Below are positions 1 through 64,000 of a stretch of DNA of 64,000 bases, one piece after another. This DNA comes from Pontibacter coccineus (GTDB lineage: Bacteria > Bacteroidota > Bacteroidia > Cytophagales > Hymenobacteraceae): contig NZ_JAUOTN010000005.1 of assembly GCF_030546575.1 (NCBI RefSeq), forward strand, positions 248,001 to 312,000, given 5' to 3'. Within the stretch, counting starts at the first letter, position 1, and each line of letters opens with the position of its first letter. Made by a program: the position numbers and the translations under genes. The notes under the pieces were generated by a model. That model had not been told where the DNA came from. It saw only the letters and a list, made by a program, of their open reading frames with translations, and searched no databases.

Positions 1-1789
1 CCTTCGTCCACTCCATCAGGTTTGGCATGATGCGCTTCAGGTTGAGAATGCCGTAGTGGCTGGCCAGCATGGCGTCGTCACCCAGGTCCTCGGTCTGTGA
101 AGACGGGTCGATCGGGTTGCCCTGCTGACGGCCGAAGCGGTACATCGGGTCATCTCCTTTTTCCAGGATCCACTGCGATAGCTTGGCCACGTTGTCATAA
201 CCGTTCATCTCCGGGAAATAGGTATAACCCCACTTCACAGAATGCTTGTCATACACGCCTATACCTGGCATCAGTGCCACGCCCTTGTCCTCTGGCTGCG
301 CCACGTAGTTGAAACGGGCATAGTCCATGATAGAAGGGGCGGTACCCATCTCTTTGGTGAATTTGGCATCGCGCAGCTTCTCCACCGGGAAGGCGGCACT
401 GGAGCCCATGTTGTGCGGCAGACCCAGGGTATGGCCTACTTCGTGCGCCGACACAAAGCGGATCAGCTCGCCCATCACTTCGTCTTTGAACTTGATGCCA
501 CGGGCATCCGGGTTCACGGCGGCCGTCTGCACAAAGTACCAGTTGCGTAGCAGGTTCATCACGTTGTGGTACCAGCCGATGTGGCTTTCCAGGATCTCAC
601 CGGAGCGCGGGTCGTGCACGTTCGGTCCGTAAGCGTTTTGCGTCTCCGAAGAGAAGTAGCGGATTACAGAGTAGCGCGCGTCTTCGGTGCTGAACTCCGG
701 ATCTTCCTCCGGGGTAGGGGCATCTTTGGCGATGATGGCATTTTTAAAGCCGGCGGCCTCGAATGCCTTGTTCCAATCCTCTACGCCTTGCTTCAGGTAT
801 GGTCGCCATTTCATCGGCGTGGCCGGGTCAATGTAGTAAACGATTGGCTTGATAGGCTCTACTAACTCACCGCGGGCATAGGCGTCTTTGTCTTTTGGCT
901 CCAGTTTCCAGCGCACAATGTAGCGGCGCTTCGCAGCACGTTGCTCGTCCGTGCCGTAGTCGGTCTGGGAAAGCGTGAAGTAACCTACGCGCTCGTCAAA
1001 GCGACGGGCAGGCATCGGTACCTTCGGCAACAGGAGCATGGAGTGGTTCAGCTCCACGGTGATGGTACCGGCATTGGAGTTGGCAGGCGGATCAGTCGCC
1101 TCGTAGGTCATGAGGGAGCGCGCCTCGATGTTGATCGGGAAGCTCTTGATGCCCTCCACGAAAGAACGCTTGTCGTCCAGGCGCTTCACTTTGTAAGACT
1201 CACGCTGGCGCTTGTTCAGGCCGAGTGCTTGTACGTCTTTCGAGAAAAAGTCGGTCACTTCCACCACAGAAGCACCGTTATTAAAGGCTTTTACATCGAA
1301 GGCCTGTATTACCGGGGCCAGGTTGGAGTTCTGTACCGAATGGTAGATCTCCAGCGTGTCGCTGGCTACGTTCTGGTAAGAGATCAGGCGGAGTAAAATG
1401 CGATTGCCTTTCTTTTCCCATCGCAGCATCTGGCGGTTCAACTCCTCGCCGCCATACCCAAGGTTGGTAGCGGTCTTGGCGATGCGGCTCACCATCAGCA
1501 TGTCGCGGTTCAGAAGCGTATCCGGAATTTCGTAGAAGTACTTATCGTCGATGCGGTGCACCTTGAAAAGTCCCTCGTCGGTTACGGCGTTCGGGGTGAT
1601 AACGCTGGCGTAGGGTTTTACGCCGCTGTCTTCTTTTTTAGCGGCCGGAGTAGCCTGCGTGGTGGTTGCTTCCTGCTTGGCTTTTTTCTTCTTCTTTTTT
1701 TCCTTGCTTTGGGCAAAGGCAGGCGGTGCTACAAGCGCACCAGCCAGAAGCAGTGTAGCCAGCCGGGCGTAGCGTACATTTTTGCTCAT
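1..1789 (-). CDS. Zinc-dependent metalloprotease, DUF5117/DUF4953 type (3' end outside window)
   Basis: Secreted or periplasmic zinc peptidase of the large Bacteroidota family with DUF5118, DUF5117 and DUF4953 domains; the substrate is unknown. Reading the minus strand from the ATG at 1789 gives MSKNVRYARLATLLLAG with a signal peptide ending near AFAQS, followed by a Lys-rich stretch (KEKKKKKKAK). The metal site is HEVGHTLGLPHN around residue 446, an HExxHxxxxxH metzincin-like motif followed by an SIMDYARF turn. About 596 codons are visible and the reading frame runs off the left edge, so the C-terminal part is missing. A paralogue lies at 15606-18041. The family call is firm; the physiological role is unknown. 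Confidence 0.9.
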   Translation of the reverse strand, partial: MSKNVRYARLATLLLAGALVAPPAFAQSKEKKKKKKAKQEATTTQATPAAKKEDSGVKPYASVITPNAVTDEGLFKVHRIDDKYFYEIPDTLLNRDMLMVSRIAKTATNLGYGGEELNRQMLRWEKKGNRILLRLISYQNVASDTLEIYHSVQNSNLAPVIQAFDVKAFNNGASVVEVTDFFSKDVQALGLNKRQRESYKVKRLDDKRSFVEGIKSFPINIEARSLMTYEATDPPANSNAGTITVELNHSMLLLPKVPMPARRFDERVGYFTLSQTDYGTDEQRAAKRRYIVRWKLEPKDKDAYARGELVEPIKPIVYYIDPATPMKWRPYLKQGVEDWNKAFEAAGFKNAIIAKDAPTPEEDPEFSTEDARYSVIRYFSSETQNAYGPNVHDPRSGEILESHIGWYHNVMNLLRNWYFVQTAAVNPDARGIKFKDEVMGELIRFVSAHEVGHTLGLPHNMGSSAAFPVEKLRDAKFTKEMGTAPSIMDYARFNYVAQPEDKGVALMPGIGVYDKHSVKWGYTYFPEMNGYDNVAKLSQWILEKGDDPMYRFGRQQGNPIDPSSQTEDLGDDAMLASHYGILNLKRIMPNLMEWTK

Positions 1790-2097
1790 AATGGGGTGAA
1801 AGATTAGGTTAAATTAGTATTTCACAATATACCAGTTTCCAGGTATAGTCTAAAAGACTATGCTTGAGTGGAATGGTTTAATCAGGTGAACGTGTATACC
1901 TTAATTTCGCGACTTCCATCAGAACAATGCTATCATAACTAAACATATCACAGCAGAATGAGTAATAAATTAGGATAGGCTATACCTTGCTGATACCCTG
2001 TCTGGCTTCTTCCTGTTAAGCGTTCTGCTGCTTAATTCAGACGTGTATCGTCCCTGCTTCTGACACACATTCTTTCCAATTTTTACACCACTTCATC
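1790..2097. other. Divergent intergenic region
   Basis: This gap separates the divergent metalloprotease and TPR genes and must hold both promoters. It is AT-rich and carries copies of the AGGTATA/TATACCT heptamer at about 1836, 1895 and 1981. No clear TTTG / TAnnTTTG pair or operator was recognised. Confidence 0.5.
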
Positions 2098-3714
2098 ATG
2101 CGAACATCACTTGTTACAGCTATAGCATGGAGCATTGCCTTTGCTATACCGGGGTATAGTGCGCTTGCGCAGGGGCATGCCACCAAACACGGCACCGTGA
2201 ACCTGCAAACCTCCTGCAGTGAGCGGGCGCAGCAGTTTTTTGACAATGGCCTGGCACTCATGCACCATATGATGTATGAGGAGGCGGAGCAGGAATTTGC
2301 CGCCGCTGCTCAAGCCGCGCCGGATTGCGGCATGGCCCAATGGGGCATTGCCATGAGCTACATTCACCCGTTGTGGGGCGAGCGGCCTACAGATGAAAAC
2401 CTGCAGAAGGGGAAGGCAGCCGTAGAGAAAGCACAGCAACAAAATAGCCTGACAGATAAGGAAAAAGCCTACGTTAACGCTGTGTCTCAGTTTTATGAAA
2501 ACTGGGAGAATACCAGCTATGCAGATCAACTGAAAGCGTTCGAGGCTGGGTATAAGCAAGCGCATGAAGCTTATCCGGATGAAGTAGAGGCGGCTGCCTT
2601 TTACGCCCTGGGCCAGCTCGGCACGGCCCCGAAGACAGATAAGACTTTTGCAAAACAGAAAGAAGCCGGAGCGCTGCTGGAACAACTGCATGCCAAAAAA
2701 CCCGACCACCCGGGAATGTTTCACTACATCATCCATGCCTACGACAACCCCCTGCTGGCTACCAAGGCGGTTAACGTGTCGCGGGAATATGAGCGCATAG
2801 CCCCGGATGTACCGCATGCCCTGCACATGCCAAGCCATATCTTTGTTCGATTGGGTCAGTGGACGGACGCTGTAGACTGGAACATCCGCTCAGCAGATGC
2901 CGCCATCCGACAGTCGCCCAAAGACGTGGTCTCCATGCACTACCCGCACGCCCTGGATTACATGGCGTACGGCTACCTGCAGCAGGGGCAGGATAAAAAA
3001 GCACAGGCTGTAGTTGAAAAGCTGGAGGCAGCAGTAGGGTATACCCCCACCTTCGCGACGGCCTATGCGCTGGCCGCTATACCTGCCCGCCAGGCCATGG
3101 AAAGGGGCAAATGGGCTGAAGCAGCCGCTTTGCCCGTCCGGTCTCCCGAAAGCTTTGCCTGGGATAAGTATCCGGGCGCTGAGGCCATCACGCATTTTGC
3201 CAAAGGGATAGGTGGCGCCCGCTCCGGAAACACGGGTGTAGCCGAAGAGGCGATTATGGCTCTAAATAAATTGCAGAAGCAATTGAACAGCTCTGGCGAT
3301 ACCTATTGGGCAGCACAGGCCGAGGCCCAGCAACTGGCTGTGCAGGCCTGGCTGGCGTATCAAAAAGGAGACAAGGAAAAAGGGCTTGCCATAATGCGGG
3401 AGGCAGCTGACAAGGAAGACGCACTGGACAAACATCCGGTAACGCCAGGAGCTGTGCTGCCGGCCCGGGAGCTATTAGGTGATATGCTGTTGCTGAGCAA
3501 AAAGCCAGCGGAAGCTATGCTGGCCTATGAAGCAAGCCTGAAAATATCGCCCAAACGCTATAACAGCCTTTATGGAGCAGCCCTCGCCGCTGAAAGGGCG
3601 AAAGACAAAGAGAAAGCCAGGTCTTATTATTTAGAATTACTGAAAACAGCACCGGAGGCTGATGGTGACCGGGAGAGCTGGGCACAGGCCAAAAAGTTCG
3701 CCGCCAGAAAATAA
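2098..3714 (+). CDS. Exported tetratricopeptide-repeat protein
   Basis: A 538-residue exported TPR protein, presumably a periplasmic scaffold; partners are unknown. The N-terminus MRTSLVTAIAWSIAFAIPGY with cleavage near ALAQG is a typical signal peptide. TPR-like helices start at once (AQQFFDNGLALMHHMMYEEA, then MAQWGIAMSYIHPLWGERPT) and recur in the C-terminal third (PAEAMLAYEASLKISPKRYN, then a unit with YYLELLKTAPEADGD). The central HYIIHAYDNP and HMPSHIFVRLGQW segments are His-rich and recur in this group of uncharacterised Bacteroidota TPR proteins. It converges on dinB with only 6 bases between the two stop codons and no terminator hairpin. Confidence 0.8.
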   Translation: MRTSLVTAIAWSIAFAIPGYSALAQGHATKHGTVNLQTSCSERAQQFFDNGLALMHHMMYEEAEQEFAAAAQAAPDCGMAQWGIAMSYIHPLWGERPTDENLQKGKAAVEKAQQQNSLTDKEKAYVNAVSQFYENWENTSYADQLKAFEAGYKQAHEAYPDEVEAAAFYALGQLGTAPKTDKTFAKQKEAGALLEQLHAKKPDHPGMFHYIIHAYDNPLLATKAVNVSREYERIAPDVPHALHMPSHIFVRLGQWTDAVDWNIRSADAAIRQSPKDVVSMHYPHALDYMAYGYLQQGQDKKAQAVVEKLEAAVGYTPTFATAYALAAIPARQAMERGKWAEAAALPVRSPESFAWDKYPGAEAITHFAKGIGGARSGNTGVAEEAIMALNKLQKQLNSSGDTYWAAQAEAQQLAVQAWLAYQKGDKEKGLAIMREAADKEDALDKHPVTPGAVLPARELLGDMLLLSKKPAEAMLAYEASLKISPKRYNSLYGAALAAERAKDKEKARSYYLELLKTAPEADGDRESWAQAKKFAARK

Positions 3715-3720
3715 AGCCAG

Positions 3721-4800
3721 CTAAAACTCCAGCGTCAGCTGGTAGCCTTCCATTTTGTCGTGCTGGTAGAGGAGGGAGGAGGCCGTTATACCTAGCAAAC
3801 GCACCGGATATACCGGCAAATGGGGCGTGCGCAGCAGGTCGCGGGCAATGGTAAAGATGGCGTCGGCCGACTTGATCTCGCCCAGAAAAGTCTTGCTGCG
3901 GGTGGTTTGGTTGAAGTCGAAGTACTTGATCTTGACTGTGATGGTCTTGGCCGTGGTTTGCAGTCGTTCCATGTCGTGCGCCACTTCTTTGGCTAGTTTT
4001 TCCAGCTCCGGCAGCATCACTTCCTCCTCTGTCAGGTCTACCTCAAAGGTGCGCTCTGAGCCGATGGATTTGCGGATGCGGTGTGGCTGTACCTCCCGGT
4101 CGTCCTGCGCGCGGGCAATGCGGTAGTAGTAGCGCCCTGTTTTGCCGAAATGGCGCACCAGCTCCTCCTCTGACTTCTCCCGCAGATCGGCACCGGTGAG
4201 GATCCCCATGCTCTGCAGTTTGGCCGCCGTTACTTTCCCAATACCATAGAATTTCTCGATGGCCAGGGCCGCCACTATATCCTCGGCTTTGTCGGGTGGG
4301 ATGAGTGTGAAGCCATTGGGCTTGTTCATGTCCGAGGCGATCTTAGCCAGAAACTTATTGAAGGATACGCCGGCTGAGGCAGTCAGGCCGGTTTCCGCCT
4401 GGATCTTGGCCCTGATCTCGTTGGCGATAATCGTGGCGGAGGGCATGCCGATCTTATTTTCGGTTACGTCCAGGTAGGCTTCGTCCAGGGAGAGCGGCTC
4501 TACCAGGTCGGTATAGGAGTAGAAGATCTCGCGGATCTGGCGCGATACGGCGCTGTATACCTCGAAGCGGGGCTTCACAAAGATCAGCTGTGGGCAACGC
4601 TGCGCCGCGATCTTGGAGGCGAGGGCCGAGTGTACGCCATACCGACGGGCCTCGTAACTGGCCGCTGCCACCACACCTCTTGCCCGCGAGCCGCCCACAG
4701 CCACGGGTTTGCCACGCAGCTCCGGATTGTCGCGCTGCTCCACGGAAGCGAAAAAAGCGTCCATGTCGATGTGGATGATCTTGCGGATAGGGCTAGGCAT
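3721..4800 (-). CDS. dinB: DNA polymerase IV, Y-family translesion polymerase
   Basis: Error-prone Y-family DNA polymerase that extends past damaged or misaligned template bases. The 359 residues begin MPSPIRKIIHIDMDAFFASV; the DMD aspartate and the later SLDEAYLDVT pair supply the catalytic metal ligands. A helix-hairpin-helix segment (FYGIGKVTAAKLQSMGI) and the little-finger domain (SIGSERTFEVDL onward) complete the fold, and the length is normal for DinB. A TATCTTTG box on the minus strand at 4812-4819 is so close to the ATG that the leader would be only a few bases. No LexA box was recognised. Confidence 0.95.
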   Translation of the reverse strand: MPSPIRKIIHIDMDAFFASVEQRDNPELRGKPVAVGGSRARGVVAAASYEARRYGVHSALASKIAAQRCPQLIFVKPRFEVYSAVSRQIREIFYSYTDLVEPLSLDEAYLDVTENKIGMPSATIIANEIRAKIQAETGLTASAGVSFNKFLAKIASDMNKPNGFTLIPPDKAEDIVAALAIEKFYGIGKVTAAKLQSMGILTGADLREKSEEELVRHFGKTGRYYYRIARAQDDREVQPHRIRKSIGSERTFEVDLTEEEVMLPELEKLAKEVAHDMERLQTTAKTITVKIKYFDFNQTTRSKTFLGEIKSADAIFTIARDLLRTPHLPVYPVRLLGITASSLLYQHDKMEGYQLTLEF

Positions 4801-4811
4801 AAGGATGGGTA

Positions 4812-4819
4812 CAAAGATA
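4812..4819 (-). promoter_or_regulatory. Putative -7 box (TATCTTTG) of dinB
   Basis: Read on the minus strand this is TATCTTTG, matching the Bacteroidota -7 consensus TAnnTTTG. It lies 12 bases before the dinB ATG, implying a leader of about 5 bases. No TTTG -33 element is obvious at the expected distance. Confidence 0.4.
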
Positions 4820-4821
4820 AG

Positions 4822-4885
4822 AGTTTAGAAGTTGAAGAATTTGAGAAGTTAGGAAGTTGAGAAGGTAGAAAGTTATAAAGTAGTG
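4822..4885 (-). repeat. Degenerate CAACTTCTAA-type leader repeat upstream of dinB
   Basis: Read on the minus strand this is a run of pyrimidine/A units such as CAACTTCCTAACTTCTCAA and CAACTTCTAAACTC with a period of about 10-12 bases. Similar runs precede four other genes in this window. Confidence 0.5.
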
Positions 4886-4980
4886 ATGTTACTCCATATC
4901 GTCGTTTCCGTGCAATGGCGTCATGCCGAAACGTCGTTCGTGTGCAGTGGATCAGAGCGAGCTCTCCTGAACATCCTTGA

Positions 4981-5166
4981 CTGGGAAAATTACTGCGGGG
5001 GACATCCATGTCCCCGTATACCTGCAAAGCGGTCACACGGGGATTAGGAAATCCCCGACAATCTTCTTCGGAATTGATAAATCCCGAAGAGCCCCTTTTA
5101 GAAAAGCCTATTAGAAAATTTAATCGCTTCTAGGGACGGGTCGTGACCTGTCCGAATCGCGCGCCC
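4981..5166. repeat. Intergenic repeat block with palindromes (copy 1)
   Basis: The block holds GGGGACATCCATGTCCCC, an 8-bp stem with a 2-base loop at about 5000-5017, then GGGGATTAGGAAATCCCC (7-bp stem), then GGGACGGGTCGTGACC followed by TGTCCGAATCGCGCG. Related sequences occur at 7440-7740 on the far side of the DJ-1 and pirin genes: the GGGGACAT hairpin in inverted orientation and the GGTCG...CCGAATCG unit in direct orientation. No coding potential was seen. Confidence 0.6.
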
Positions 5167-5240
5167 GTAATCATGCACCCGTATACCTTCCTAAATCGTG
5201 CCCTTATCAACAATCAACGGGAAGCAATCGTTAAGCCAAT

Positions 5241-5300
5241 AAGAACAATTAACAATTCAGCAATTCAACAATTTAGCAATTCAACCATTCAACCATCAAC
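5241..5300 (+). repeat. Degenerate AACAATTCAAC leader repeat
   Basis: Tandem-like AT-rich units (ACAATTAACAATTCAGC, then ATTCAACAATTTAGC, then ATTCAACCATTCAACC) run right up to the DJ-1 ATG at 5305. The stretch lacks G almost completely and resembles the leaders at 30871-30904 and 37931-37983. Confidence 0.6.
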
Positions 5301-5304
5301 AGCT

Positions 5305-5997
5305 ATGAAAGTACTATTTGTTTTAACCTCACACGACCAATTAGGTGACACCGGAAAAAAGACTGGTTTCTGGATTGAGGAGTTTGCAGCCCCTTATTAC
5401 ACACTGGCCGATGCCGGCGTGGAGGTGGACCTCGCCTCACCGAAAGGCGGTCAGCCACCGATCGACCCGAAGAGCACGGAAAAGGATGCGCAGACCGAGG
5501 CGACCAGGCGCTTTTACGAGGACGAGGACCTGCAGCACACACTCTCCCGCACCAAAAAACTTACGGAAGTAAAAGCCGATAACTATGATGCCGTTTTCTT
5601 CCCGGGTGGGCACGGACCGTTGTGGGATCTCTCCAGCGATAAAGACTCCATCCGCCTGATCGAGGAGTTTGCCAGGCAGCAGAAGCCGGTGGCGGCCGTT
5701 TGTCACGGACCCGCTGCCCTGATGCAGGCCAAAGGCCCGAACGGGGAGCCACTCGTGAAAGGCAAAAAAGTGGCAGGCTTCACTAACACCGAGGAGGAGG
5801 CTGTGCAATTGACCGAAGTGGTGCCCTTTCTGGTGGAGGACCGCTACCAGGAACTGGGCGGCATCTACTCCAAAGCCGACGACTGGCAGCCTTATGTGGT
5901 TACGGACGGTTTGCTAATCACGGTGCAGAACCCAGCCTCCTCGGAGCCAGCGGCGGAAGCCTTGCTCAAGATGCTCAAAAAGGAGAAAGCGGCTTAA
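5305..5997 (+). CDS. DJ-1/PfpI family protein (Hsp31-like, type 1 glutamine amidotransferase fold)
   Basis: A 230-residue DJ-1/PfpI superfamily protein, probably a glyoxalase III-like or deglycase-like stress protein of the Hsp31 branch. The start MKVLFVLTSHDQLGDTGKKT is chosen because the fold's first strand begins there; an upstream in-frame ATG would translate the repeat leader. The nucleophile-elbow cysteine is in PVAAVCHGPAALM, FFPGGHGPLWDL supplies the oxyanion loop, and GFWIEEFAAPYY is the usual Hsp31 start. It is followed by a hairpin terminator at 6039-6078, so it is probably a single-gene unit. The exact substrate cannot be read from the sequence. Confidence 0.88.
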   Translation: MKVLFVLTSHDQLGDTGKKTGFWIEEFAAPYYTLADAGVEVDLASPKGGQPPIDPKSTEKDAQTEATRRFYEDEDLQHTLSRTKKLTEVKADNYDAVFFPGGHGPLWDLSSDKDSIRLIEEFARQQKPVAAVCHGPAALMQAKGPNGEPLVKGKKVAGFTNTEEEAVQLTEVVPFLVEDRYQELGGIYSKADDWQPYVVTDGLLITVQNPASSEPAAEALLKMLKKEKAA

Positions 5998-6038
5998 GCT
6001 CCTGGTTTTTCGTATACCTCACTATCAGTGTAGCGTGA

Positions 6039-6078
6039 AAATCCCACCCAATCCTATTTGGAAACGGTGGGATTTTTA
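6039..6078 (+). terminator. Rho-independent terminator after the DJ-1 gene
   Basis: AAAATCCCACC at 6039-6049 pairs with GGTGGGATTTT at 6067-6077 (11 bp), followed by a further T. Confidence 0.75.
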
Positions 6079-6300
6079 TGTTAAACTGTTCGGTATGCTT
6101 GTCTTCACAGATGCTTAATATCAAAACTCTTAAGATGTAATTTATTATATAGGGTAATGGAAGGTGAGTTGAAGATAGTAATAGCCTGATTTTCCCTAAA
6201 GTTAAAGCGTTTTCGTTAGTAAGAGAAGAAGCTCAAATCTTAATGTCATTCTGTTAAGAAACTAGGCTAAAGGGAGTTTAAGCTTTTGCTAATCGCTACC

Positions 6301-6320
6301 AAGATCCTTACAGGATGACA
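6301..6320 (+). repeat. AAGATCCTTTCAGGATGACA-family repeat
   Basis: The sequence AAGATCCTTACAGGATGACA contains a small ATCCT/AGGAT inverted repeat. Near-identical copies lie at 26373-26392, 36095-36114 and 62814-62833, always in intergenic repeat regions. Confidence 0.65.
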
Positions 6321-6479
6321 AAAAAGGACTAAACGGTTCTGTCCTCAAGGGGATAGTTTTAGATGTTGTCGAATAGTTCTCCTATAGAGCACACCACGAT
6401 TTGTATATGTAACAATCAGGCTGGTGTTAGTGTAATTAATGTATATACATTAATTTGCGGCCGATCTTAATATAGCCTT

Positions 6480-7334
6480 ATGCGAAAAATAAAGAAATTA
6501 CATAAAGCGGTGCATGCGCCCATGGGCGATCTGGTGACCTACCGCGCTATACCTACACACGAAGTTGAGTACATCGATCCTTTTCTTTTCCTGAACCACC
6601 ATGGTCCACAGGTATACAAGCCCGGCAACAGGGGACTGCCTTTCGGGCCGCACCCGCACCGTGGCTTCGAAACATTGACTTTTATTCTGGACGGCGACAT
6701 CACGCACCAGGACACGGGCGGTGGAAAGGATGTTATTGAGGCCGGTGGCGTGCAATGGATGACGGCCGGAAGCGGCCTGATCCATGCGGAGGTGTCTTCT
6801 GAGAAATTTAAGCAGGAGGGAGGACCGCTGGAGATTCTGCAGCTGTGGTTCAACCTGCCCGCTGAGCACAAAATGACGTCCCCGAAATACATTGGTCTGC
6901 AGAAAAACAAGATCCCGACAGTAGAACTCGACAATGGAAACGTGCGGGTAAACGTGATCTCCGGCAGCTGGGGTGAGGTGGAGGCGCCCATCCAGAACCT
7001 GAGCGACATCCACATGGTGAGCATCGAGCTGCTAAAAGGCGGGGAGTTCGTTTACAACATCCCTTCGGAGCGCAATATCTTTTTCTACGTGGTACGCGGC
7101 GCTGTTAAAGTTAATGGCCAAACGGCGGAAAAACTCACCTTAGTGGAATTCGGAAATGAGGGCAAAGAAGTGAAAGTAGAGGCGACAGAGGACGCCTACA
7201 TCCTCTTCGGCCATGCCCACCCGTTCAACGAGCCGGTTGTATCACACGGACCCTTTGTGATGAACACCGAAGACGAGATTCGTGCGGCCTTCCGAGATTA
7301 CCAAATGGGTAAGATGGGGACTTGGGAGAGTTAA
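6480..7334 (+). CDS. Pirin family protein
   Basis: A 284-residue bicupin of the pirin family. Some members are quercetin 2,3-dioxygenases and others regulate metabolic enzymes. The N-terminal cupin carries FGPHPHRGFETLTFILDG and GDITHQDTGGG, with the metal-binding His triad, and GSGLIHAEVSSE supplies the last ligand segment. The second cupin (MVSIELLKGGEFVYNIPSER onward) is degenerate, as is usual. Length is normal. It stands alone between two repeat-rich gaps, so the neighbours give no functional clue. Confidence 0.92.
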   Translation: MRKIKKLHKAVHAPMGDLVTYRAIPTHEVEYIDPFLFLNHHGPQVYKPGNRGLPFGPHPHRGFETLTFILDGDITHQDTGGGKDVIEAGGVQWMTAGSGLIHAEVSSEKFKQEGGPLEILQLWFNLPAEHKMTSPKYIGLQKNKIPTVELDNGNVRVNVISGSWGEVEAPIQNLSDIHMVSIELLKGGEFVYNIPSERNIFFYVVRGAVKVNGQTAEKLTLVEFGNEGKEVKVEATEDAYILFGHAHPFNEPVVSHGPFVMNTEDEIRAAFRDYQMGKMGTWES

Positions 7335-8031
7335 GGAGTTTGAGTTTTGATTTGTAGCGACGGTACACCGTAAAGTCGTAGTTTGTCTGCCTGGCAAGTC
7401 AATCACCATCCGCAGTGGCAGTCCGTTATGCCATTCTGTATGAACCTATAGGGATGGGTCGCAACCTATCCGAATCGTGCGCTAAGTCTCCTTAAGCTGA
7501 TGCAGGTATATTTGTCAAGTATAAATACAGGCTCCCTATTCCTAACTGATGCAGGTTCCCAGACCTGGGTCTGTAGCAAACGTGAAATTGGAAAACCCCC
7601 AACAGCCACAGAATGCTTTAAACGCTCTTTCGGACATCCATGTCCGAAAGCGATCTGTTGGGGATGTCCACATCCCTGTACTCAGGTTCACAGGTTTACG
7701 GGGACAAGGATGTCCCCGGCAGAAATAATTTTGGGCACGGATATTTGAAAGTGCATTTGGATTTGGAAATTCGAAAGAGCATTTGGAATAGCGGCCAGAG
7801 TCCGCTGATGACTCACACTCGCGGGACGCGAGCGAGGGTGAAGATATCTCATTTTATACTAGATGACATCTAGGTACCTAAGATCTTAAGTTGAAGGCAT
7901 TAGGTCGCGCCCTGCGCCACTCGGTCACCAAACTACTACTTGCACCAAACTTTTTAATGGTCTTGCAGCATCTAATAGATTTTCCCCCAACCACCTATTT
8001 GAGTCCACATACCCAGTAGGTACTTAAAGCA
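7335..8031. repeat. Intergenic repeat block with palindromes (copy 2)
   Basis: About 700 bases without a credible gene. At 7450-7482 lies GGGATGGGTCGCAACC then TATCCGAATCGTGCG, matching the 5134-5166 unit in direct orientation. At 7625-7740 lie three short hairpins (CGGACATCCATGTCCG, GGGGATGTCCACATCCC, GGGGACAAGGATGTCCCC); the segment at 7690-7732 is the inverted counterpart of 4986-5026. At 7815-7845 is CTCGCGGGACGCGAGCGAG, a GC-rich palindrome similar to the core at 20979. Possible short open frames here run through these repeats and were not called as genes. Confidence 0.6.
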
Positions 8032-8068
8032 AAATAGCTCTCTTCCCAGTCAGGAAAGAGAGCTATTT
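8032..8068 (-). terminator. Terminator after the pseudouridine-synthase-like gene
   Basis: AAATAGCTCTCTT (8032-8044) and AAGAGAGCTATTT (8056-8068) form a perfect 13-bp stem with an 11-base loop, 36 bases past the stop codon of the minus-strand gene. Confidence 0.75.
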
Positions 8069-8103
8069 AGGTATAGTGTTAGCTAAATGTGAGCGAGTAA
8101 TTC

Positions 8104-9246
8104 TTATCTTCCACGCTTAGGACCACCTTTTGGCCCATCACTGCGCTTGCCACCACTTTTCGGGGCAGCGCTTCTGCCGGGTGCTGATTTTGGAGAAGCT
8201 TTAAAGCTACCGCCTCGTGAGGTCGGGGTCTTGCCCGGGCTGCCGGCACCTTCTCTGGAAGAAGTTCTTCTAGCATCGGCACCGTCTCTTGAAGGACCTG
8301 TTTTTCTAACATCGCCACCGGCTCTGCTGGTGCCAGGCCTTTTCGCACCTTCACTTCCTTTTGCCGATGAACCGGGTCTGCTGCCTCTGGCAGGACCTTT
8401 GTCCGCGCCTCCTCTGGAAGGCGTACCAGATGCACCGCCTTTTGGAGAGCCACTGCCACTTTTCGTACCTGATCGCTCGCCTCTAGCCGGTCTGTCATAG
8501 GTGCTTTCCGATGTTTTCCGGCTGCTCGTTCCCTTAGCACCGGGCACGAGGCTGGTCAGGCTGCTTACTTCCTGTGGCGTGAGCACGCGCCAGTGGCCGG
8601 AAGGCAATTTGGCCAGTGAAAACTCACCGAAACGAACGCGCTGCAGGTGCATCACTTTATAGCCCAGACTCTCGCACATGCGTTTCAGGTAGTGGTCAGT
8701 GCCCGGTTTCAGAATAATGCGGAATCGTGTCTGTGTTTCTTTGGAAACGGAATTGTTCACCCGCTCTTCGCCAGGTATGGGAGCGCCGCCGCCACTTATC
8801 TTCTGCAGAAAATCAGCCGTGATCATTTTGTCCACAGTCACGATAATCTCCTTCTCAAACTTGTTGTCGGCCCGCTTCACGCCACGCACAAAGTCACCGT
8901 CGTTGCTCAGGAAAATGATGCCCTCTGCTTCGCGTTCCAGCATGGCGGTGGGCTCCAGCGTAGCCGGGAAGTTGATGGCCCGCACTACATTGTCACGCAC
9001 GGCCATATCGGAAGTGGCCGACATATTGGCCGGTTTGTTGAAGATCAGGTATACGGGTTGCTCCTGTTTCACACGAAGCATCTCGTCGTCGATGCGCACT
9101 TTGTCCTTCGGTGTCACTTTCATGCCCGGGTCGGACGGAATTTTACCGTTCACCGTCACGCGGCCCTGTTCTATCAGCTCGTCTGCATCGCGACGGGAGC
9201 AGAAGCCCGAGTCGCTGATGAATTTATTCAGTCTTTTTGGTTCCAT
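8104..9246 (-). CDS. RluF/RsuA-type pseudouridine synthase homologue with altered active site and Gly/Ser/Lys/Arg tail
   Basis: The 380-residue protein has an S4 RNA-binding domain (KRLNKFISDSGFCSRRDADE, residues 4-60), a pseudouridine-synthase core of the RluF branch (about 65-240) and a roughly 135-residue basic, Gly/Ser/Pro-rich tail that looks disordered and could bind RNA. In active enzymes the core has GRLD with the catalytic Asp; here the aligned segment is TAMLEREAEGIIFLSNDGDF, putting Glu at position 104. The conserved Tyr of KEYLV is Ile134 (FEKEIIVTVDK), and the NRQIRRM motif is DHYLKRMCE. All three substitutions are read directly. The protein may be a non-catalytic RNA binder, or an enzyme with a Glu general base. 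The fold call is firm; activity is in doubt. Confidence 0.85.
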   Translation of the reverse strand: MEPKRLNKFISDSGFCSRRDADELIEQGRVTVNGKIPSDPGMKVTPKDKVRIDDEMLRVKQEQPVYLIFNKPANMSATSDMAVRDNVVRAINFPATLEPTAMLEREAEGIIFLSNDGDFVRGVKRADNKFEKEIIVTVDKMITADFLQKISGGGAPIPGEERVNNSVSKETQTRFRIILKPGTDHYLKRMCESLGYKVMHLQRVRFGEFSLAKLPSGHWRVLTPQEVSSLTSLVPGAKGTSSRKTSESTYDRPARGERSGTKSGSGSPKGGASGTPSRGGADKGPARGSRPGSSAKGSEGAKRPGTSRAGGDVRKTGPSRDGADARRTSSREGAGSPGKTPTSRGGSFKASPKSAPGRSAAPKSGGKRSDGPKGGPKRGR

Positions 9247-18758: not shown

Positions 18759-18770
18759 TAACTTTCGCTA

Positions 18771-18814
18771 AAGCTGTCCCTATACCCGTACAGGTATAGG
18801 GACAGCTTTTTTTA
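18771..18814 (+). terminator. Strong rho-independent terminator built from the TATACC motif
   Basis: AAGCTGTCCCTATACC (18771-18786) pairs perfectly with GGTATAGGGACAGCTT (18793-18808) around a 6-base loop, followed by TTTTTT. The top of the stem is made of the heptamer that is iterated across the window. Confidence 0.92.
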
Positions 18815-19745: not shown

Positions 19746-19864
19746 GATATAAGATGTCTTCGGAATTGTTGACGATGACCCTTCGGTTTTAGGTTCCTCT
19801 GCTGCTGTGAAGTTCGGGAAAGCTATACCTGTCAAGTATACCTATACCTAAGCTCTACTTTGTT

Positions 19865-40547: not shown

Positions 40548-42278
40548 ATGGCTGAAGTGATACGAATGCCTAAGATGAGCGACACGATGACGGAGGGGGT
40601 GATTGCATCTTGGCTTAAGAAAGTAGGTGACAAGGTTAGCTCAGGCGATGTGCTGGCCGAAGTGGAAACCGATAAGGCGACCATGGAACTGGAATCATAC
40701 GAAGATGGCACTCTGTTGCACATTGGTCCGAAGAAAGGCGATTCTGTACCTATTGATGCTGTAATAGCGATCATTGGCAAGGAAGGCGAGGACATTTCCG
40801 GTCTACTGGGTGAGGCTGGCGGAAGCGCGAAGCCTGCTGCCAAAGAGGCTCCAAAAGAAGAGAAAGAGGAAGCTCCGAAGCAGGAAGAGAAGAAAGAGGC
40901 GGCTCCGGCCAAGGCTGACGCTCCTGCCGCAAAAACTTCTGTGGACACCTCCAACATCAAAGCCTCTGTTATCCGCATGCCGAAGATGAGCGACACCATG
41001 ACAGAAGGTGTGCTGGTATCTTGGCTGAAGAAAGTGGGCGACAAAGTGAGCTCAGGCGACGTGCTGGCCGAAGTGGAAACCGACAAGGCGACCATGGAGC
41101 TGGAGTCTTACGAAGACGGTACGCTGCTTTACACCGGCGTAAACGCGGGTGATTCTGTGGCCATTGATGCGATCATCGCCATCATCGGCGACAAAGACGC
41201 GGACTACAAAGCCCTGCTTGATGCGGAAGGTGGTAAAGAAGGACGTTCACGCGAAGAGAACGCGCAGTCTGACGAGAACATAGAAGCCCGAACCGAGGCC
41301 ACAACAGAAGATAAAGTACAGGAAACAGAAGTGCCGGCTGGCGAAACAGAGCAGATTGCTGCGGAAGGTAATGGCCGCATCAAGGCTTCTCCGCTTGCCA
41401 AAAAAGTAGCGAAAGACAAAGGCATTAAGCTGAACCAGATCAAAGGATCAGGGGAGGGTGGCCGCATAGTGCTGCGCGACGTGGAGAATTTCACGCCGTC
41501 TGCTGCACCGCAGAAAGCTGCAGCTCCTGCTGCCGCGCCAACTCAGGCCGCTGCTCCTGCCCCACAAGCTGCAGCAGCTACGCCAGCTGCCACTACAGAC
41601 GCCTACGAAGAAGTGAACGTATCGCAGATGCGCAAGGTGATTGCACGTCGTCTGGCCGAGAGCAAGTTCTCTGCACCGCATTTCTACCTGACCATGGAAA
41701 TCGACATGGACAAGGCAATCGAGTCCCGCGCTTCTATCAACGAGGTGTCTCCGGTGAAAGTATCGTTTAACGACCTGGTGATCAAGGCGGCCGCTGCGGC
41801 GCTTCGTCAGCACCCTGCCGTGAACTCATCCTGGTTAGGCGACAAGATCCGTTACAACAAGCAGATCAACATTGGCGTGGCTGTAGCTGTAGAAGAAGGC
41901 CTGCTGGTACCAGTGGTGCGCAATGCCGACAGCAAGTCACTTTCTGCGATTGCATCTGAGGTGAAAGACCTGGGCGGCAAGGCGAAGAACAAGAAGCTGC
42001 AACCGTCTGACTGGGAGGGCAACACCTTCACGATCTCTAACCTGGGCATGTTTGGCATCGAAGAGTTTACCGCCATCATCAACTCGCCGGATGCGTGCAT
42101 TCTGGCAGTAGGCGCCATCAAACAGACGCCTGTGGTGAAGAACGGTAACATCCAGATCGGTAACGTGATGAAAGTAACCCTTTCCTGCGATCACCGCGTG
42201 GTAGACGGTGCTGTTGGTTCTGCCTTCTTGCAGACCTTCAAGAGCATGATGGAAAACCCACTGCGCATCCTGGTATAA
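40548..42278 (+). CDS. aceF: Pyruvate dehydrogenase complex E2, dihydrolipoamide acetyltransferase
   Basis: Core acetyltransferase of the pyruvate dehydrogenase complex, passing acetyl groups from lipoamide to CoA. The 576 residues contain two almost identical lipoyl domains with lipoyl Lys in ETDKATMELESYEDG (Lys43 and about Lys181), Ala/Glu/Lys-rich linkers, an E1/E3-binding domain (IKASPLAKKVAKDKGIKLNQ) and the catalytic core ending with DHRVVDGAVGSAFLQTF. The E1 genes are not adjacent, so E2 is a single transcription unit between its own promoter and a terminator. The two lipoyl domains are alike at DNA level as well (GTGCTGGCCGAAGTGGAAAC in both). Confidence 0.95.
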   Translation: MAEVIRMPKMSDTMTEGVIASWLKKVGDKVSSGDVLAEVETDKATMELESYEDGTLLHIGPKKGDSVPIDAVIAIIGKEGEDISGLLGEAGGSAKPAAKEAPKEEKEEAPKQEEKKEAAPAKADAPAAKTSVDTSNIKASVIRMPKMSDTMTEGVLVSWLKKVGDKVSSGDVLAEVETDKATMELESYEDGTLLYTGVNAGDSVAIDAIIAIIGDKDADYKALLDAEGGKEGRSREENAQSDENIEARTEATTEDKVQETEVPAGETEQIAAEGNGRIKASPLAKKVAKDKGIKLNQIKGSGEGGRIVLRDVENFTPSAAPQKAAAPAAAPTQAAAPAPQAAAATPAATTDAYEEVNVSQMRKVIARRLAESKFSAPHFYLTMEIDMDKAIESRASINEVSPVKVSFNDLVIKAAAAALRQHPAVNSSWLGDKIRYNKQINIGVAVAVEEGLLVPVVRNADSKSLSAIASEVKDLGGKAKNKKLQPSDWEGNTFTISNLGMFGIEEFTAIINSPDACILAVGAIKQTPVVKNGNIQIGNVMKVTLSCDHRVVDGAVGSAFLQTFKSMMENPLRILV

Positions 42279-53950: not shown

Positions 53951-56533
53951 TTACTGCTTCACTAGTTTCTCCGCCCTGAACACATGGTCCGCAGCCTGCA
54001 GAATTTTGCCTTTCAGCTTGGGGTTGTAGTCCGGGTGCTCGGCCAGAAATGTGCGAATGGCGGCGGCGGCCGTCGGCGTCTGGTAATACCCAAGCGTGGA
54101 TTGCAGCCAGTTGGTAGGGAAGAAGATGTCGCCGGTCAGTTGAATTTCTTCCACCAGTTCCAGGCTCTCACGCAGGTATTTCTCTGACGAGGCTGCCCGC
54201 AGTGGGTGGTGCAGGTAGGAGAGGGCAGAACCCACCCAGGCTTCCTTGTCACGGTTGCCGCGATCTTTGAGCGTGGCAAAAAAGGCGTCACGCACCTGTT
54301 CGTTTCCTGACAGGGCCGGCATCAAGTACTGCAGACGTTTTTGACGGTCCGGGTTTTTGAGGCGTGCCAGTTGTTGGCGCAGTATACCTTCCGAATCAGC
54401 GTAGTCACGCACAGCCAGCGACAGGGCCAGGGGGGTATAGTCCTCTTCGGTGAGGGTGACGCCTGTTGGTGCTTTCTGAGTCTGCCATACCTGGTGTAAA
54501 CGATCCTGCGCCTCACGAGTCATGGCTATGTTTTGGTAAGCTTTGAAGAGCAATTTTTTGGCATTCCCGGATTGCTGTTTCTCCATGGCCCCCCACAAAA
54601 TTTTCTCATAGGCAGGGGCTAATTTCGCTCTTTGCTCCGGACTGGTGAATTTCCAGAAGGTGTCGCTCAGGTAACCTGTTAATAGCTTCAGATTCAACTC
54701 GTCCTGCTCGTTAGCTGATTGCGGGAGCGCAATATGCTGCAGGATATCGGGCGTGATGTCCACTCCGTTGAGCATATTCTCATACAAATTGATGTAGGAT
54801 GAAGCTCGCATCACGGGATTCTGTAGTCTATTGAGGTAGCTAAGGCCACGCGCATCGATTGGGAAAGTACCGTAGCCCTGCCCGGAGGAGTTGAACAACA
54901 CATAGAGCGGCCATTCTTTACCAATCACCTCCTGGAATTCAATGGAGGGACGGTCCATGTTTACCGTATATTCCTCGACGCGGTCATCGTACACCAGGGC
55001 AACTTCAAAAAGCTGCGGCCACAGTCGTTCCGATCCGTCCTCGCCTTTTTGGGAGATAGAAAAAACGTTGATTTTCCCATCTTCCACATCCAGCTTACTG
55101 TCGAACACCGGACGGCCCGGTTCATTCACCCATACCTGGTTCCAGGCCTGCAGGTCTACTGGCGTGCGGGCATCCAGAATCTCAATCAGTTGTGGCCAGG
55201 TGGCGTTGCTGTTGGCATAGGTTTTCAGGTATACCTGCAGCCCTTCCTGAAACGCTTTTTCGCCCATCAGCCGCTCCAGCTGCCGCATCATAATGGGGGC
55301 CTTGTGGTAGATGATGTGCCCGTAGAGCGAGCCGGCATCCTGCAGATTAGCCAGGTCCTGACGGATCGGGTTGGCGCCTGCCGTACGGTCTACACTGTAG
55401 GCCGCGGGAAAGTGGTCGATCAGGAATTTGAGGTCGTAATTGCTGTCCTTTACCGTCGTTTTGGAGATTTTATCGGCCATGAAGTTGGCAAACACCTCTT
55501 TCATCCACACGTCGTTGAACCAGCGCATTGTTACCAGGTCGCCGAACCACATGTGCGCCGTTTCGTGCGCGATCAGGTTAGAACGTGCCACCAGCTGGTC
55601 TTTAGTCGCGCCTTCGTCCAGGAACAGGGTAGAGGCCTTGTAGTCGATTGCCCCCACGTGCTCCATACCGCCATACTGGAAATCAGGTATAGCCACAAAG
55701 TCGAATTTCTGGAAAGGGTAGGGAATCCGGGTGTAGTCCTCCATAAAGTCGAGCGCATCACGGTGAATGCTGAAGATCGGGGCAACACTCTTCAGCTTGT
55801 CCGGATCGGTTTCGCGGTGGAGGAAATGCATGGTACGGCCGCGATCTTCGTTCGTGATCCTTCTAAAATCGCCTGCCGCAAAAGAGAAGAGGTAGGTCGG
55901 AATGGTATCGGAAGGCAGGTAGGTATAGGTCTTGGTCGCGCCGGTCAGTACCGAGTCCTGCAATGGGGCATTGGCCAGGGCTTTCCAGTCCTTCGGCAGC
56001 GTTAGTGAGAGGGTGAACACCGCTTTCAGGTCCGGCTGATCGAAGCAGGGGAACACGGTACGGGCCCGGTCCGGCACAAGCAAGGTATAGAGGTAATCCT
56101 CGTTGCGGTTGAGCGAGAGGTTGCCGGCCGTAAAGCCAAGCTGCACTTGGTTATGGCCTTCTTTCAGGTAGCGCGGCTCGATGACGATGTGCTCGTTCCG
56201 GAACACAATCGGGATCTGTTTCCCATTCACCCGAACGGCATGCAATTGATCCTGCTGCTCTTTAAAATCGATCTGCAGCGCCTGCTCCTTGTTGAGCAGG
56301 TGAAACGAAATGACTTCGGAAGCAGGTATAGACGCGTCCTTAGCGGCAGGGATTTGCAGCTTGATATCATACTGCACATTGCGCAAGGTCTGTTTGCGGT
56401 ACTCCGCCAGTTCGCGCGACACACCCGTCTCGACAGGTAAGGTATAGGCGCTGGTGGCAGGGGTTTTGCTGCAAGCTCCAAGCAGCAGGAGCGACAGGGC
56501 TGCGGCGCTCAAGGTATAGTTAAAGTTGTTCAT
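53951..56533 (-). CDS. M1 family aminopeptidase (lipoprotein)
   Basis: An 860-residue gluzincin aminopeptidase, predicted to be a periplasmic or surface lipoprotein (MNNFNYTLSAAALSLLLLGA then CSKTP; start at 56533). The zinc motif is HETAHMWFGDLVTMRWF, with the third ligand Glu in DVWMKEVFANFMADK, HExxH near residue 320. The exopeptidase motif GAMEN reads GGMEH in FQYGGMEHVGAIDYK, and the catalytic Tyr lies in SLYGHIIYHKAPIMM. A long helical C-terminal domain follows, as in PepN/ERAP-type enzymes. Single gene; upstream lies composite repeat copy C. Confidence 0.93.
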   Translation of the reverse strand: MNNFNYTLSAAALSLLLLGACSKTPATSAYTLPVETGVSRELAEYRKQTLRNVQYDIKLQIPAAKDASIPASEVISFHLLNKEQALQIDFKEQQDQLHAVRVNGKQIPIVFRNEHIVIEPRYLKEGHNQVQLGFTAGNLSLNRNEDYLYTLLVPDRARTVFPCFDQPDLKAVFTLSLTLPKDWKALANAPLQDSVLTGATKTYTYLPSDTIPTYLFSFAAGDFRRITNEDRGRTMHFLHRETDPDKLKSVAPIFSIHRDALDFMEDYTRIPYPFQKFDFVAIPDFQYGGMEHVGAIDYKASTLFLDEGATKDQLVARSNLIAHETAHMWFGDLVTMRWFNDVWMKEVFANFMADKISKTTVKDSNYDLKFLIDHFPAAYSVDRTAGANPIRQDLANLQDAGSLYGHIIYHKAPIMMRQLERLMGEKAFQEGLQVYLKTYANSNATWPQLIEILDARTPVDLQAWNQVWVNEPGRPVFDSKLDVEDGKINVFSISQKGEDGSERLWPQLFEVALVYDDRVEEYTVNMDRPSIEFQEVIGKEWPLYVLFNSSGQGYGTFPIDARGLSYLNRLQNPVMRASSYINLYENMLNGVDITPDILQHIALPQSANEQDELNLKLLTGYLSDTFWKFTSPEQRAKLAPAYEKILWGAMEKQQSGNAKKLLFKAYQNIAMTREAQDRLHQVWQTQKAPTGVTLTEEDYTPLALSLAVRDYADSEGILRQQLARLKNPDRQKRLQYLMPALSGNEQVRDAFFATLKDRGNRDKEAWVGSALSYLHHPLRAASSEKYLRESLELVEEIQLTGDIFFPTNWLQSTLGYYQTPTAAAAIRTFLAEHPDYNPKLKGKILQAADHVFRAEKLVKQ

Positions 56534-56916
56534 TTGCTCTGAGTGTATGCTGTAAATATAGTGGGAAAGGTGAAATGATACCCACCCTGACACTCAGAAT
56601 CAGGATTTTCAATGAAGGTGGTCATCCTATTGCCTTATTGTCTGAATCAGGATTTTCAGGATTTAAGGATTTTCAGGATGCTCGTGCACGATTGACATCC
56701 CCCTGTCTGATTCTTTATCGAGGACCCTAACCAAGGGGGATTTTCTATAGCTACCAAATCAAAGGTGTAGTAGTTACAGCAGATTTTTTGCTAAACCGGG
56801 TCCAACCACCCCTACCCTCTAATCTAAGGGAAGGTTAACCTAAGCTGTCATCTCGACGATAGGAGATATCTCGATTCTTTCAAAATTTTCACGCTCATTC
56901 GGATTTCTCTCGAAAA

Positions 56917-59715: not shown

Positions 59716-59971
59716 GGTTTAGTTTGTTTTTGGATGTAGGTGAGGTATACCTTTTTTGAAATCTGTGCGGAATTCTCTCCAACAATACGGGCCAGCATTT
59801 TAAGTGGTTAACAAAAAGTGAAACTTTACAAGATTAAAATGGAATTAAAATAAGACTTTAGGTATAGCCAAAGCAGGTATACCTGTGCTGTTTTTGGATA
59901 AAACACAGGTATAGCGCAAACATAATTAGGAGTATTCTGATTAAATGAAGAATTTCTTAATGCCCGTATTA
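59716..59971. other. Intergenic region with a cluster of AGGTATA heptamers
   Basis: Within about 180 bases, six AGGTATA/TATACCT sequences occur, including the full palindromes AGGTATACCT near 59742 and 59876. The region upstream of katE probably contains its promoter. No gene was seen. Confidence 0.5.
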
Positions 59972-62927: not shown

Positions 62928-62960
62928 AAGCAGCAAACCACAGGTTTGCTGCTTTTTTTG
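62928..62960 (+). terminator. Rho-independent terminator
   Basis: AAGCAGCAAACC (62928-62939) pairs with GGTTTGCTGCTT (62943-62954) around a 3-base loop, followed by TTTTT. Confidence 0.85.
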
Positions 62961-63107
62961 TGCTAAAATACATGTATTTGGTTGATTATCAATGTTAAAA
63001 TAACTTCAATACGCTATACTTTAGTGCAATAAAATGCGTATGTAAAAATTGCACTTTGAGATAAAGCGCCATTTTGCTATTTTGTTTCCAATACGCACCA
63101 TATATCT

Positions 63108-63587: not shown

Positions 63588-63698
63588 TACGCTCATTTTG
63601 CAGGCAAATGGTGCAAGCAGAATAGCCTTAAGTACTGCCTCTGCGTTAACATACCGCCCGGTGCGCCGTATTTACAAATGCGCATATGGCACCTTATC

Positions 63699-64000
63699 AT
63701 GAACCAAACAGACATAATTCATCAAATAGGAGAGCAGAGTTCAAAAGTCCTATTTCAGTACAACCTGGCACTCAATCAATTCGACTATTTATCGCCTGCT
63801 TTTCGTGACATCTGGCAAGTGGAGGAGTCGCAGATGCAGGAGCTTCTGAAGCTGCTGCCCGACTCCCTTATGGAGGAAGACCGTCCTGCAGTGCTGCGCT
63901 GCTGGCAGAAGCTGTTGCATGGAGACCATGTAGACACAACCGTGCGCATTTACCAGGGCGGACAGAAACGCTATATACGCTGCTTAGCCTACCCGATCCT
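63699..64000 (+). CDS. Start of a PAS-domain-like protein, probably a sensor kinase (partial)
   Basis: An open frame from the ATG at 63699 (MNQTDIIHQIGEQSSKVLFQ) runs off the right edge after about 100 codons; an in-frame ATG at 63678 would add seven residues. The segment YNLALNQFDYLSPAFRDIWQ, then VEESQMQELLKLLPDSLMEE, then GDHVDTTVRIYQGGQKRYIR, has the shape of a PAS domain like those at the start of Bacteroidota histidine kinases. The C-terminal part is outside the window, so the kinase call is inference. Confidence 0.65.
   Translation, partial: MNQTDIIHQIGEQSSKVLFQYNLALNQFDYLSPAFRDIWQVEESQMQELLKLLPDSLMEEDRPAVLRCWQKLLHGDHVDTTVRIYQGGQKRYIRCLAYPI

Follow-up and report, generated by a model that had tools for sequence, protein, structure and literature searches.

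Most Pontibacter species carry on their chromosome many copies of one short word, 7 to 9 bases long. The word is described here from a stretch of 64,000 nucleotides, called the window below, which comprises positions 248001-312000 of contig C8 in genome G000 (4.66 Mb in 12 contigs), and in which the heptamer AGGTATA or its complement TATACCT is found 128 times. The MenD protein of this genome shares 93% identity with the one from Pontibacter amylolyticus, and its nearest named relatives are Pontibacter. The word is held in place at the nucleotide level, exists in dialects that follow phylogeny, is confined to the genus within the sampled family, and becomes scarce where second replicons were sampled in motif-bearing species. 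We suggest, at a probability of roughly 0.4, that it is a self-tag, read by a sequence-specific machine that takes up the DNA of kin or acts in the ensuing recombination.

An earlier reading made from the letters of the window (the sequence-only reading) had counted about 125 copies; the exact number is 128, with 67 on the forward and 61 on the reverse strand. It had put the enrichment at about 15-fold over some 8 expected copies. The enrichment stands, while its size was set too low, as 3.7 copies are expected under a first-order Markov model and 6.2 under a second-order model with the motif masked, which makes the enrichment 20- to 35-fold. AGGTATA is the top-enriched heptamer of the window and likewise of 464 kb of G000. 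Its one-base neighbours reach 4.4-fold (GGGTATA), 2.9-fold (AAGTATA), 2.7-fold (AGGTAGA) and 2.5-fold (AGGTATG) in the window, and the remaining ones at most 2.2-fold, as against 20-fold for AGGTATA itself. The longer extensions and full palindromes that the same reading had pointed out were recovered, namely CAGGTATA 73 times, AGGTATAG 67 times and CAGGTATAG 41 times, along with AGGTATACCT at 55227, 59743 and 59875; the consensus of the 128 heptamers is (C)AGGTATAG(C). It was also right that copies fall in several reading frames, as all six frame/sense classes are used by coding copies both in the window and in the 464 kb.

A genome-wide check, which the sequence-only reading had proposed together with one on relatives, found the enrichment throughout G000 and in related genomes. 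AGGTATAG occurs 4,844 times in G000 against 96 for the reversed control word, CAGGTATAG 2,420 against 18, and CAGGTATACCTG 43 against 0. The 464 kb hold 858 overlapping matches to AGGTATA (838 without overlaps), 438 and 420 by strand. Over these 858 the base before the core is C in 52% and G in 9%; the base after it is G in 60%, C as in the palindrome in 20%, and T in 4%. The next position is C in 41%, and positions farther from the core depart from background by at most 0.03 bits each. A palindromic word therefore failed as a description, given the 43 CAGGTATACCTG against 2,420 CAGGTATAG and a core that is mostly followed by G, not C.

To place the word relative to genes we sorted the 858 matches by context. 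Coding DNA held 529 of them (1.43 per kb), convergent gaps 69 (3.31 per kb), divergent gaps 60 (3.36 per kb) and tandem gaps 174 (3.42 per kb); segment ends account for another 7 and borders for 19. The intergenic density is 2.4 times the coding density, regardless of gene orientation, in line with the copies first noticed in the gaps of the window. Within genes 265 copies run with the reading direction and 264 against it, in all three phases. A codon-based null model had been named beforehand as a possible explanation of the count; a synonymous shuffle of the 347 predicted genes gives 29.2 and 36.1 copies where 265 and 264 are seen. Codon use, peptides and gene control hence do not explain the word, as the shuffle, phase and gap-density results show. 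Codon usage or peptide bias is ruled out by the shuffle together with the intergenic excess, and a promoter or terminator element by the equal density in convergent, divergent and tandem gaps, and by the even orientation relative to genes in tandem gaps (83 same, 91 opposite). Insertion of a longer element is unsupported: the logo is nearly without information past about 10 bases, and alignment gaps are found at 0.30 of intergenic motif sites against 0.36 at control words. Nor did motif deserts stand out as foreign DNA, with four gaps above 3.5 kb in the 464 kb (one of them cut by a segment end) against 1.3 expected and no clear pattern; their translations, read by eye, are those of ordinary metabolic, TonB-receptor, ribonucleotide-reductase and sigma-factor genes.

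Further we surveyed 50 Pontibacter genomes, of which 39 are motif-bearing and 11 are low in the motif. At 21-kb menD loci AGGTATA is iterated in ten relatives of the window, with 25-44 copies per locus where 1.1-1.5 are expected; among the other species nine have AAGTATA, three AACTATA, one both words and two neither. Counted over whole genomes, the AGG dialect is found in 12 of the 50 (2,823-5,222 AGGTATAG per genome), the AAG dialect in 20 (2,246-7,030 AAGTATAA) and the AAC dialect in five (6,288-8,208 AACTATAG), one of which, G047, also holds 2,125 AAGTATAA. Two genomes are mixed, G045 with 4,476 AAGTATAA and 2,002 AACTATAG, and G061 with 3,911 and 2,617; G063, classed as AAG, also holds 907 AACTATAG. 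In all three words A..TATA is constant and the second and third base vary. The word of the window is accordingly one of at least three dialects within one genus, which lay beyond the reach of a single-window view.

A tree of menD DNA (one gene, the 50 genomes, Adhaeribacter as outgroup, 24 of 48 inner branches well supported) joins the AGG genomes in one clade of 12 with support 100/100. The AAC and the two mixed genomes form one clade of seven, also at 100/100, beside G063. The AAG genomes are paraphyletic: G040 branches near the base, followed by G049 and G019. AAGTATA is therefore probably the ancestral dialect; we infer that the word was present in the ancestor of Pontibacter, probably in this form. 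The low group requires three changes on the tree, of which at least two are forced by well-supported branches. Low genomes hold 178-751 AGGTATAG and 204-1,201 AAGTATAA, up to about 5 times controls. Sampling each of the 11 over 40 to 62 kb, we found weak enrichment of TATATA in G057 (186 vs 50, both strands counted; loci L131, L205 and L206) and of GGTATA in G059 (114 vs 34; L150, L207 and L208), possibly further or fading dialects, and of AAGTATA in G007 (31 vs 9). The other eight showed no comparably outstanding word in these samples; one of them, G056, has CTATAGC 14 times against 2.4. In G056 (L016, L223 and L224) ACTCTCTA, GTTAGAGA and AGTTAGAG occur in 9 copies each, perhaps as one local repeat array. 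A separate oddity is found in the AAG genome G020, where AGGTATAG recurs every 64-69 bases in G020:C1:1944098-1946633, as if the repeat of an array of clustered regularly interspaced short palindromic repeats contained the word.

Outside the genus the word fades. The ratio of the degenerate ARSTATAR to its control is 4.5 to 16 in the 39 motif-bearing Pontibacter and 0.95 to 3.6 in the 11 low genomes, and it does not exceed about 1.4 in the 100 genomes from five other genera of the family. No 7-mer had a z above about 11 in 50 Cytophagales loci from outside Pontibacter, each 12 kb or longer; under the same model AAGTATA gave a z of 19 to 26 in five of seven 20-kb loci of AAG genomes, and 8 and 13 in the other two.

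Positional conservation between species, another check proposed from the window, was measured on about 16 kb aligned across 11 AGG species, the others sharing 76-87% identity with the window; the comparisons are mutually non-independent. Among ungapped coding comparisons AGGTATA was retained in 1,272 of 1,979 (64%), against 5,414 of 21,263 (25%) for words of the same letters; between genes the figures were 232 of 536 (43%) against 824 of 4,323 (19%). Flanking heptamers were intact in 25%. The alignment holds 68 distinct AGGTATA sites, 25 of them seen in a single species. At fourfold-degenerate positions of conserved amino acids, identity inside the word exceeds that outside it in each dialect, with 82.5 vs 55.4% for AGG, 62.5 vs 47.0% for AAG and 77.0 vs 53.2% for AAC, so that conservation lies above both same-letter words and synonymous sites. 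Across dialects, words at the same site were found in 218 of 3,410 cases from AAG to AGG and 218 of 2,211 from AGG to AAG. This is 6-10%, about 100 times background, and therefore dialect change appears to be mostly site turnover with some conversion in place; conserved peptides could account for part of this overlap.

These alignments bear on whether a mutation or mismatch-repair bias mechanically creates the word, much as very-short-patch repair in E. coli creates its own site. Such a bias would suit an accumulation that is independent of gene context. One-base departures between species, however, hit every position of the word, the commonest being GGGTATA (116), AGGTGTA (66), CGGTATA (39) and AGGTATG (37), and hence no single targeted mutation makes it. 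As the word is also retained at synonymous sites, and the sampled second replicons are barely affected, we regard this explanation as highly improbable.

The second replicons, those of motif-bearing AAG species, were contigs taken to be plasmids from their size, with their genes viewed in two 20-kb pieces. AAGTATA is found at 0.24 per kb on G020 C2 (80 of 204 kb read) against 0.92 on the chromosome sample, at 0.27 per kb on G021 C2 (all 73.8 kb) against 1.62, and at 0.12 per kb on G001 C2 (40 of 116 kb read) against 1.75, the chromosome samples being 40-60 kb each and the reversed control 0.05-0.17 per kb. It is absent from G049 C4 (5.9 kb); G049 C2 and C3, contigs of 0.8-0.9 Mb sampled by 20 kb each, have 2.30 and 1.75 per kb. 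In the low genome G002 a 20-kb piece of C2 holds 14 AGGTATA and 9 AAGTATA, close to the 13 and 6 of one chromosome piece and above the 4 and 5 of another. As an aside on assembly, two different family searches matched G040:C6 at 4104 and 78441 and at 24129 and 98466. The interval is 74,337 bases both times, which would suit the assembly of a circular element as a dimer.

Copies of the word also tend to lie the same way round as their neighbours. In the G000 sample, neighbours 20-150 bp apart are co-oriented in 64% of cases against 50% in 1,000 orientation shuffles (p 0.001, the floor of the test; overlapping arrays were collapsed beforehand), most strongly between genes, and in AAG and AAC loci the tendency is weaker and uneven. 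Copies that share one base (AGGTATAGGTATA) make up 27 pairs at distance 6, of which 15 lie inside two intergenic hexamer arrays, one of 9 overlapping copies at G000:C4:235360-235414 and one of 8 at G000:C7:442823-442871. Facing pairs at most 20 bp apart number 13 in genes and 10 between genes. Local duplication was considered as a cause of the clusters and rejected, flank similarity being 0.271 for neighbours of the same and 0.262 for those of opposite orientation.

Co-oriented clustering and overlapping arrays would suit an abundant DNA-binding protein with a role in organising, segregating or protecting the chromosome, for which many weak sites would be selected for their total number and co-oriented local clusters would aid binding. 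The density independent of gene context, the specificity for the chromosome in our sample and the conservation above control words agree with such a protein. For an architectural protein it would nevertheless be odd to find the word in one genus only and weak in 11 of 50 genomes, while three dialects demand a shift of thousands of sites, and about 2 per kb is high. We consider this rather unlikely.

Local co-orientation would also help a one-directional reader. Chi is a word read by a DNA-handling enzyme, and in a Chi-like system a helicase-nuclease would halt degradation and recombine at the word, thereby sparing self DNA. Scarcity on second replicons is in favour of this, as is a slight strand bias that emerged when orientation was compared with replication, a further check suggested from the window. 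With the sign of the local GC skew in 20-kb pieces as proxy for replication direction, AAGTATA lies 498 times on the G-rich strand against 399; the bias is only 55.5%, no strong orientation bias was seen, and in the 464 kb of G000 the strands are near equal. Moreover the word is denser between genes than in them. It is also limited to a single genus, some genomes of which have it only weakly, whereas recombination nucleases are widespread. Chi belongs to the short over-represented words, as a class named in PMC4390886, and compared with it the Pontibacter word is more enriched, hardly strand-biased, denser between genes and genus-confined. A Chi-like role thus seems quite unlikely.

The sequence-only reading had likened the heptamer to iterated motifs of two kinds, cyanobacterial HIP1 and uptake sequences. 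HIP1 (GCGATCGC) is alike in being a dense short word with another word in its place in a few genomes, and the passages on it in PMC4390886 supply the precedent of iterated words tied to methyltransferases. An orphan DNA methyltransferase could accordingly be the partner here, with selection or repair at methylated sites enriching the word. This likeness fits less well: HIP1 is palindromic and methyltransferase-tied, whereas the dominant Pontibacter form is asymmetric and the presence of the two methyltransferase families searched in the 50 genomes does not track it, so that both were rejected as motif partners. N6_N4_Mtase (PF01555) has matches in 31 of 50 genomes and none in the motif-bearing G042, G043, G045, G048, G054 and others. 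N6_Mtase (PF02384) has some match in all 50, with strong matches sporadic and only weak ones in the motif-bearing G043 and G006, the former of which also lacks a PF01555 match. Further, G-to-A differences, which deamination of a methylated C on the other strand would produce, are not the leading ones. A methylation partner is in our view very doubtful. As a side observation, CATATG, CCTCAG, ATGCAT, CCGCGG and GGATCC are under-represented in the G000 sample, as restriction-avoided words might be.

The likeness to uptake sequences holds up better, in that the Pontibacter word has dialects that follow phylogeny, is orientation-free and conserved, sits at permissive sites and is scarce on the sampled second replicons. 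As in the DNA uptake sequence (DUS) of Neisseriaceae, a short word is iterated far above chance on both strands, and at a like density, DUS being found once per 400-1,100 bp (PMC7371117). Clade-specific dialects, high conservation and permissive positions are further shared features, going by the relevant passages of PMC3630211, PMC7371117 and PMC2397512. The last of these describes the Neisseria DUS as conserved, placed at permissive positions and rare in accessory DNA (PMC2397512), and here the parallel is partial, as the Pontibacter word is scarce on sampled second replicons and not depleted in atypical genes. The uptake signal sequence (USS) of Pasteurellaceae is likewise reported to be iterated on the chromosome and divided into subtypes by clade (PMC1626085, PMC1939737), the Apl subtype being named in PMC3630211. 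Both systems differ from ours in the same ways: Pontibacter belongs to another phylum, the core has 7-9 bases where DUS are 10-mers or longer, and neither a convincing pilus ATPase nor inverted-pair terminators are found. We therefore say that the word seems to work like an uptake sequence and do not class it as one. No report of the word came up among the literature matches listed, chiefly from freely accessible journals, and the names Bacteroid-, Pontibacter, Cytophaga and Hymenobacter are absent from the main text of a survey that covers spaced motifs in prokaryote genomes (PMC5217627).

In the mechanism we propose, a sequence-specific DNA-handling machine would read the word, most likely in natural transformation or the recombination that follows. 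Fragments bearing the word would be preferentially taken in or recombined, and a chance mutation that creates it would spread and be kept wherever the sequence tolerates it. Such preference would lead to a high intergenic density whatever the orientation, to the use of all frames, and to scarcity in constrained genes and in separately inherited replicons. A shift in the specificity of the reader would give a new dialect, with old words replaced mostly at new sites and partly in place, and after loss of the reader the words would decay. A machine of the Neisseria or Haemophilus type is ruled out by the lack of a convincing pilus/secretion ATPase. At the same probability as above, we think that Pontibacter may have a system of DNA self-recognition that works without type IV pili, in three or more dialects, perhaps with weaker ones besides (GGTATA in G059, TATATA in G057), and with a reader protein of an undescribed kind.

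Several findings weigh against this proposal, among them those on candidate readers. No reader gene was found among the families searched (PF00437, PF03772, DUF5689, PF01555 and PF02384). The type IV pilus/type II secretion ATPase (PF00437) has no convincing match in the 50 genomes, where partial P-loop matches of 19-26 bits (maximum 25.9) include three just over the cut-off of 24.9; the search detects all 14 control genomes, and PF00437 was the one pilus family searched. The channel protein ComEC (PF03772), as expected of an uptake system, is present in 50 of 50 genomes, the 11 low ones included, and is hence uninformative on the motif. Two ComEC matches with an in-frame stop, at G009:C76:160505-161305 and G022:C1:2771217-2771876, both in motif-bearing genomes, possibly reflect a sequencing error or a decaying gene.

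In favour of the proposal, natural competence is reported for Riemerella, likewise of the Bacteroidetes. DUF5689 is found in one of its proteins essential for transformation, among which the section of PMC8459023 that treats them lists no pilus protein. We found DUF5689 in 22 of 50 Pontibacter genomes. Its short form is limited to 12 of the 39 motif-bearing genomes and missing from all 11 low ones, which is too few for a common reader; a long form is present in five motif-bearing and five low genomes. The neighbours of the short form are SusD-like genes, or genes with CarboxypepD_reg and TonB plug domains: in G000:C6 (L193:1312-3526) it lies directly before a CarboxypepD_reg/TonB plug gene, and in G054:C1 (L188:60-3532) between a SusD-like gene before and a PLD-like gene after. 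SusC-type neighbours are common in Bacteroidota. The Riemerella transformation pair also joins DUF5689 and CarboxypepD_reg domains, as in G000 (PMC8459023). As a marker of a Riemerella-like uptake machine DUF5689 is non-diagnostic.

Also against the proposal are the absence of literature on competence in Pontibacter among the matches listed, and the arrangement of the word itself. Inverted-pair terminators were not found, convergent gaps being no denser than others. The co-orientation of neighbours is not predicted by uptake. The residual counts in low genomes, up to about 5-fold, mean that loss was not clean. Finally, chromosomal genes in the lowest quartile of codon typicality carry 1.72 copies per kb against 0.99 in the highest quartile, which counts against a simple self/foreign distinction and fits permissiveness.

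The individual copies in the window are given by start position and strand. The first 10 kb have 220+, 260-, 1841+, 1895-, 1981-, 3078-, 3787-, 4556-, 5017-, 5182-, 6013-, 6548-, 6610+, 7504+, 8069+, 9047+, 9594+ and 9685+. From 10 to 20 kb they are 10600+, 11768+, 12292-, 12868+, 13086-, 13504+, 13514-, 13635+, 13923+, 14631+, 14736+, 15263+, 15587-, 17488+, 18048+, 18792+, 18819-, 19427-, 19824-, 19837- and 19843-, and from 20 to 30 kb 20680-, 21310-, 21449+, 21586-, 21709-, 22499+, 22712+, 22778-, 22878+, 23590+, 25843-, 25849-, 25875-, 26062-, 26100-, 26197-, 26288-, 26992-, 29577- and 29983-. Between 30 and 40 kb lie 30619+, 30684+, 31494+, 31580+, 31877+, 32384+, 34575+, 34657+, 34698+, 34721+, 35632-, 35840-, 35872-, 36213-, 36307-, 36825+, 37031+, 37565-, 38022+, 38744+, 38957+, 38968+, 39167+, 39828- and 39969+, and between 40 and 50 kb 40431+, 40462+, 43091+, 43319-, 44958-, 45291+, 46650-, 47666-, 47679-, 48966+, 49201-, 49461-, 49522-, 49557-, 49610+ and 49621-. 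The last part, 50-64 kb, has 50197+, 50547-, 51030+, 51613-, 51904+, 52384+, 53296-, 53736+, 54383-, 55227+, 55230-, 55685+, 55921+, 56083+, 56324+, 56440+, 56512+, 56999+, 57226-, 57332-, 58168-, 59743+, 59746-, 59860+, 59875+, 59878-, 59907+ and 62535+.

Two of the palindromes extend to CAGGTATACCTG, one at 55226-55237 (around the AGGTATACCT at 55227) within an open reading frame at 53951-56593, and one at 59874-59885 (around that at 59875), which is intergenic and part of a four-copy cluster at 59860-59913 on the forward strand (59860+, 59875+, 59878- and 59907+); the shorter palindrome at 59743-59752 is intergenic. Three co-oriented reverse-strand copies, two of them sharing one base, lie at 19824-19849 and again at 25843-25881, and a run of four more (26062, 26100, 26197 and 26288) at 26062-26294 on the same strand, outside the genes picked for the window. 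An intergenic forward-strand cluster at 34657-34727 has three co-oriented copies (34657, 34698 and 34721). The sequence-only reading had placed a copy in the stem of a terminator near 18771, and had found the genes hutU and aceF free of the motif. We agree on both: the terminator-like hairpin at 18770-18809 (forward strand) carries one AGGTATA in its 3' arm (18792-18798) and CTATACCC in its 5' arm, and zero copies fall in the long forward-strand genes hutU (urocanase, 27283-28995) and aceF (2-oxoacid dehydrogenase acyltransferase, 40548-42278).

To our knowledge, sequence-specific uptake tags are known only from Neisseriaceae and Pasteurellaceae, both acting through pilus machinery. If our proposal is true, a genome-wide tag with dialects would have arisen independently in Bacteroidota, in bacteria for which the search gave no convincing pilus ATPase; if the tag instead serves chromosome structure or repair, we know of no close parallel. 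Were the proposal true, two open questions would become testable, namely how short words come to fill genomes, by selection or by molecular drive, and by what means DNA is recognised in Gram-negative bacteria that lack such pili. The genus offers natural controls in its three dialects, its mixed intermediates and its low-motif species, which sit in two or more parts of the tree.

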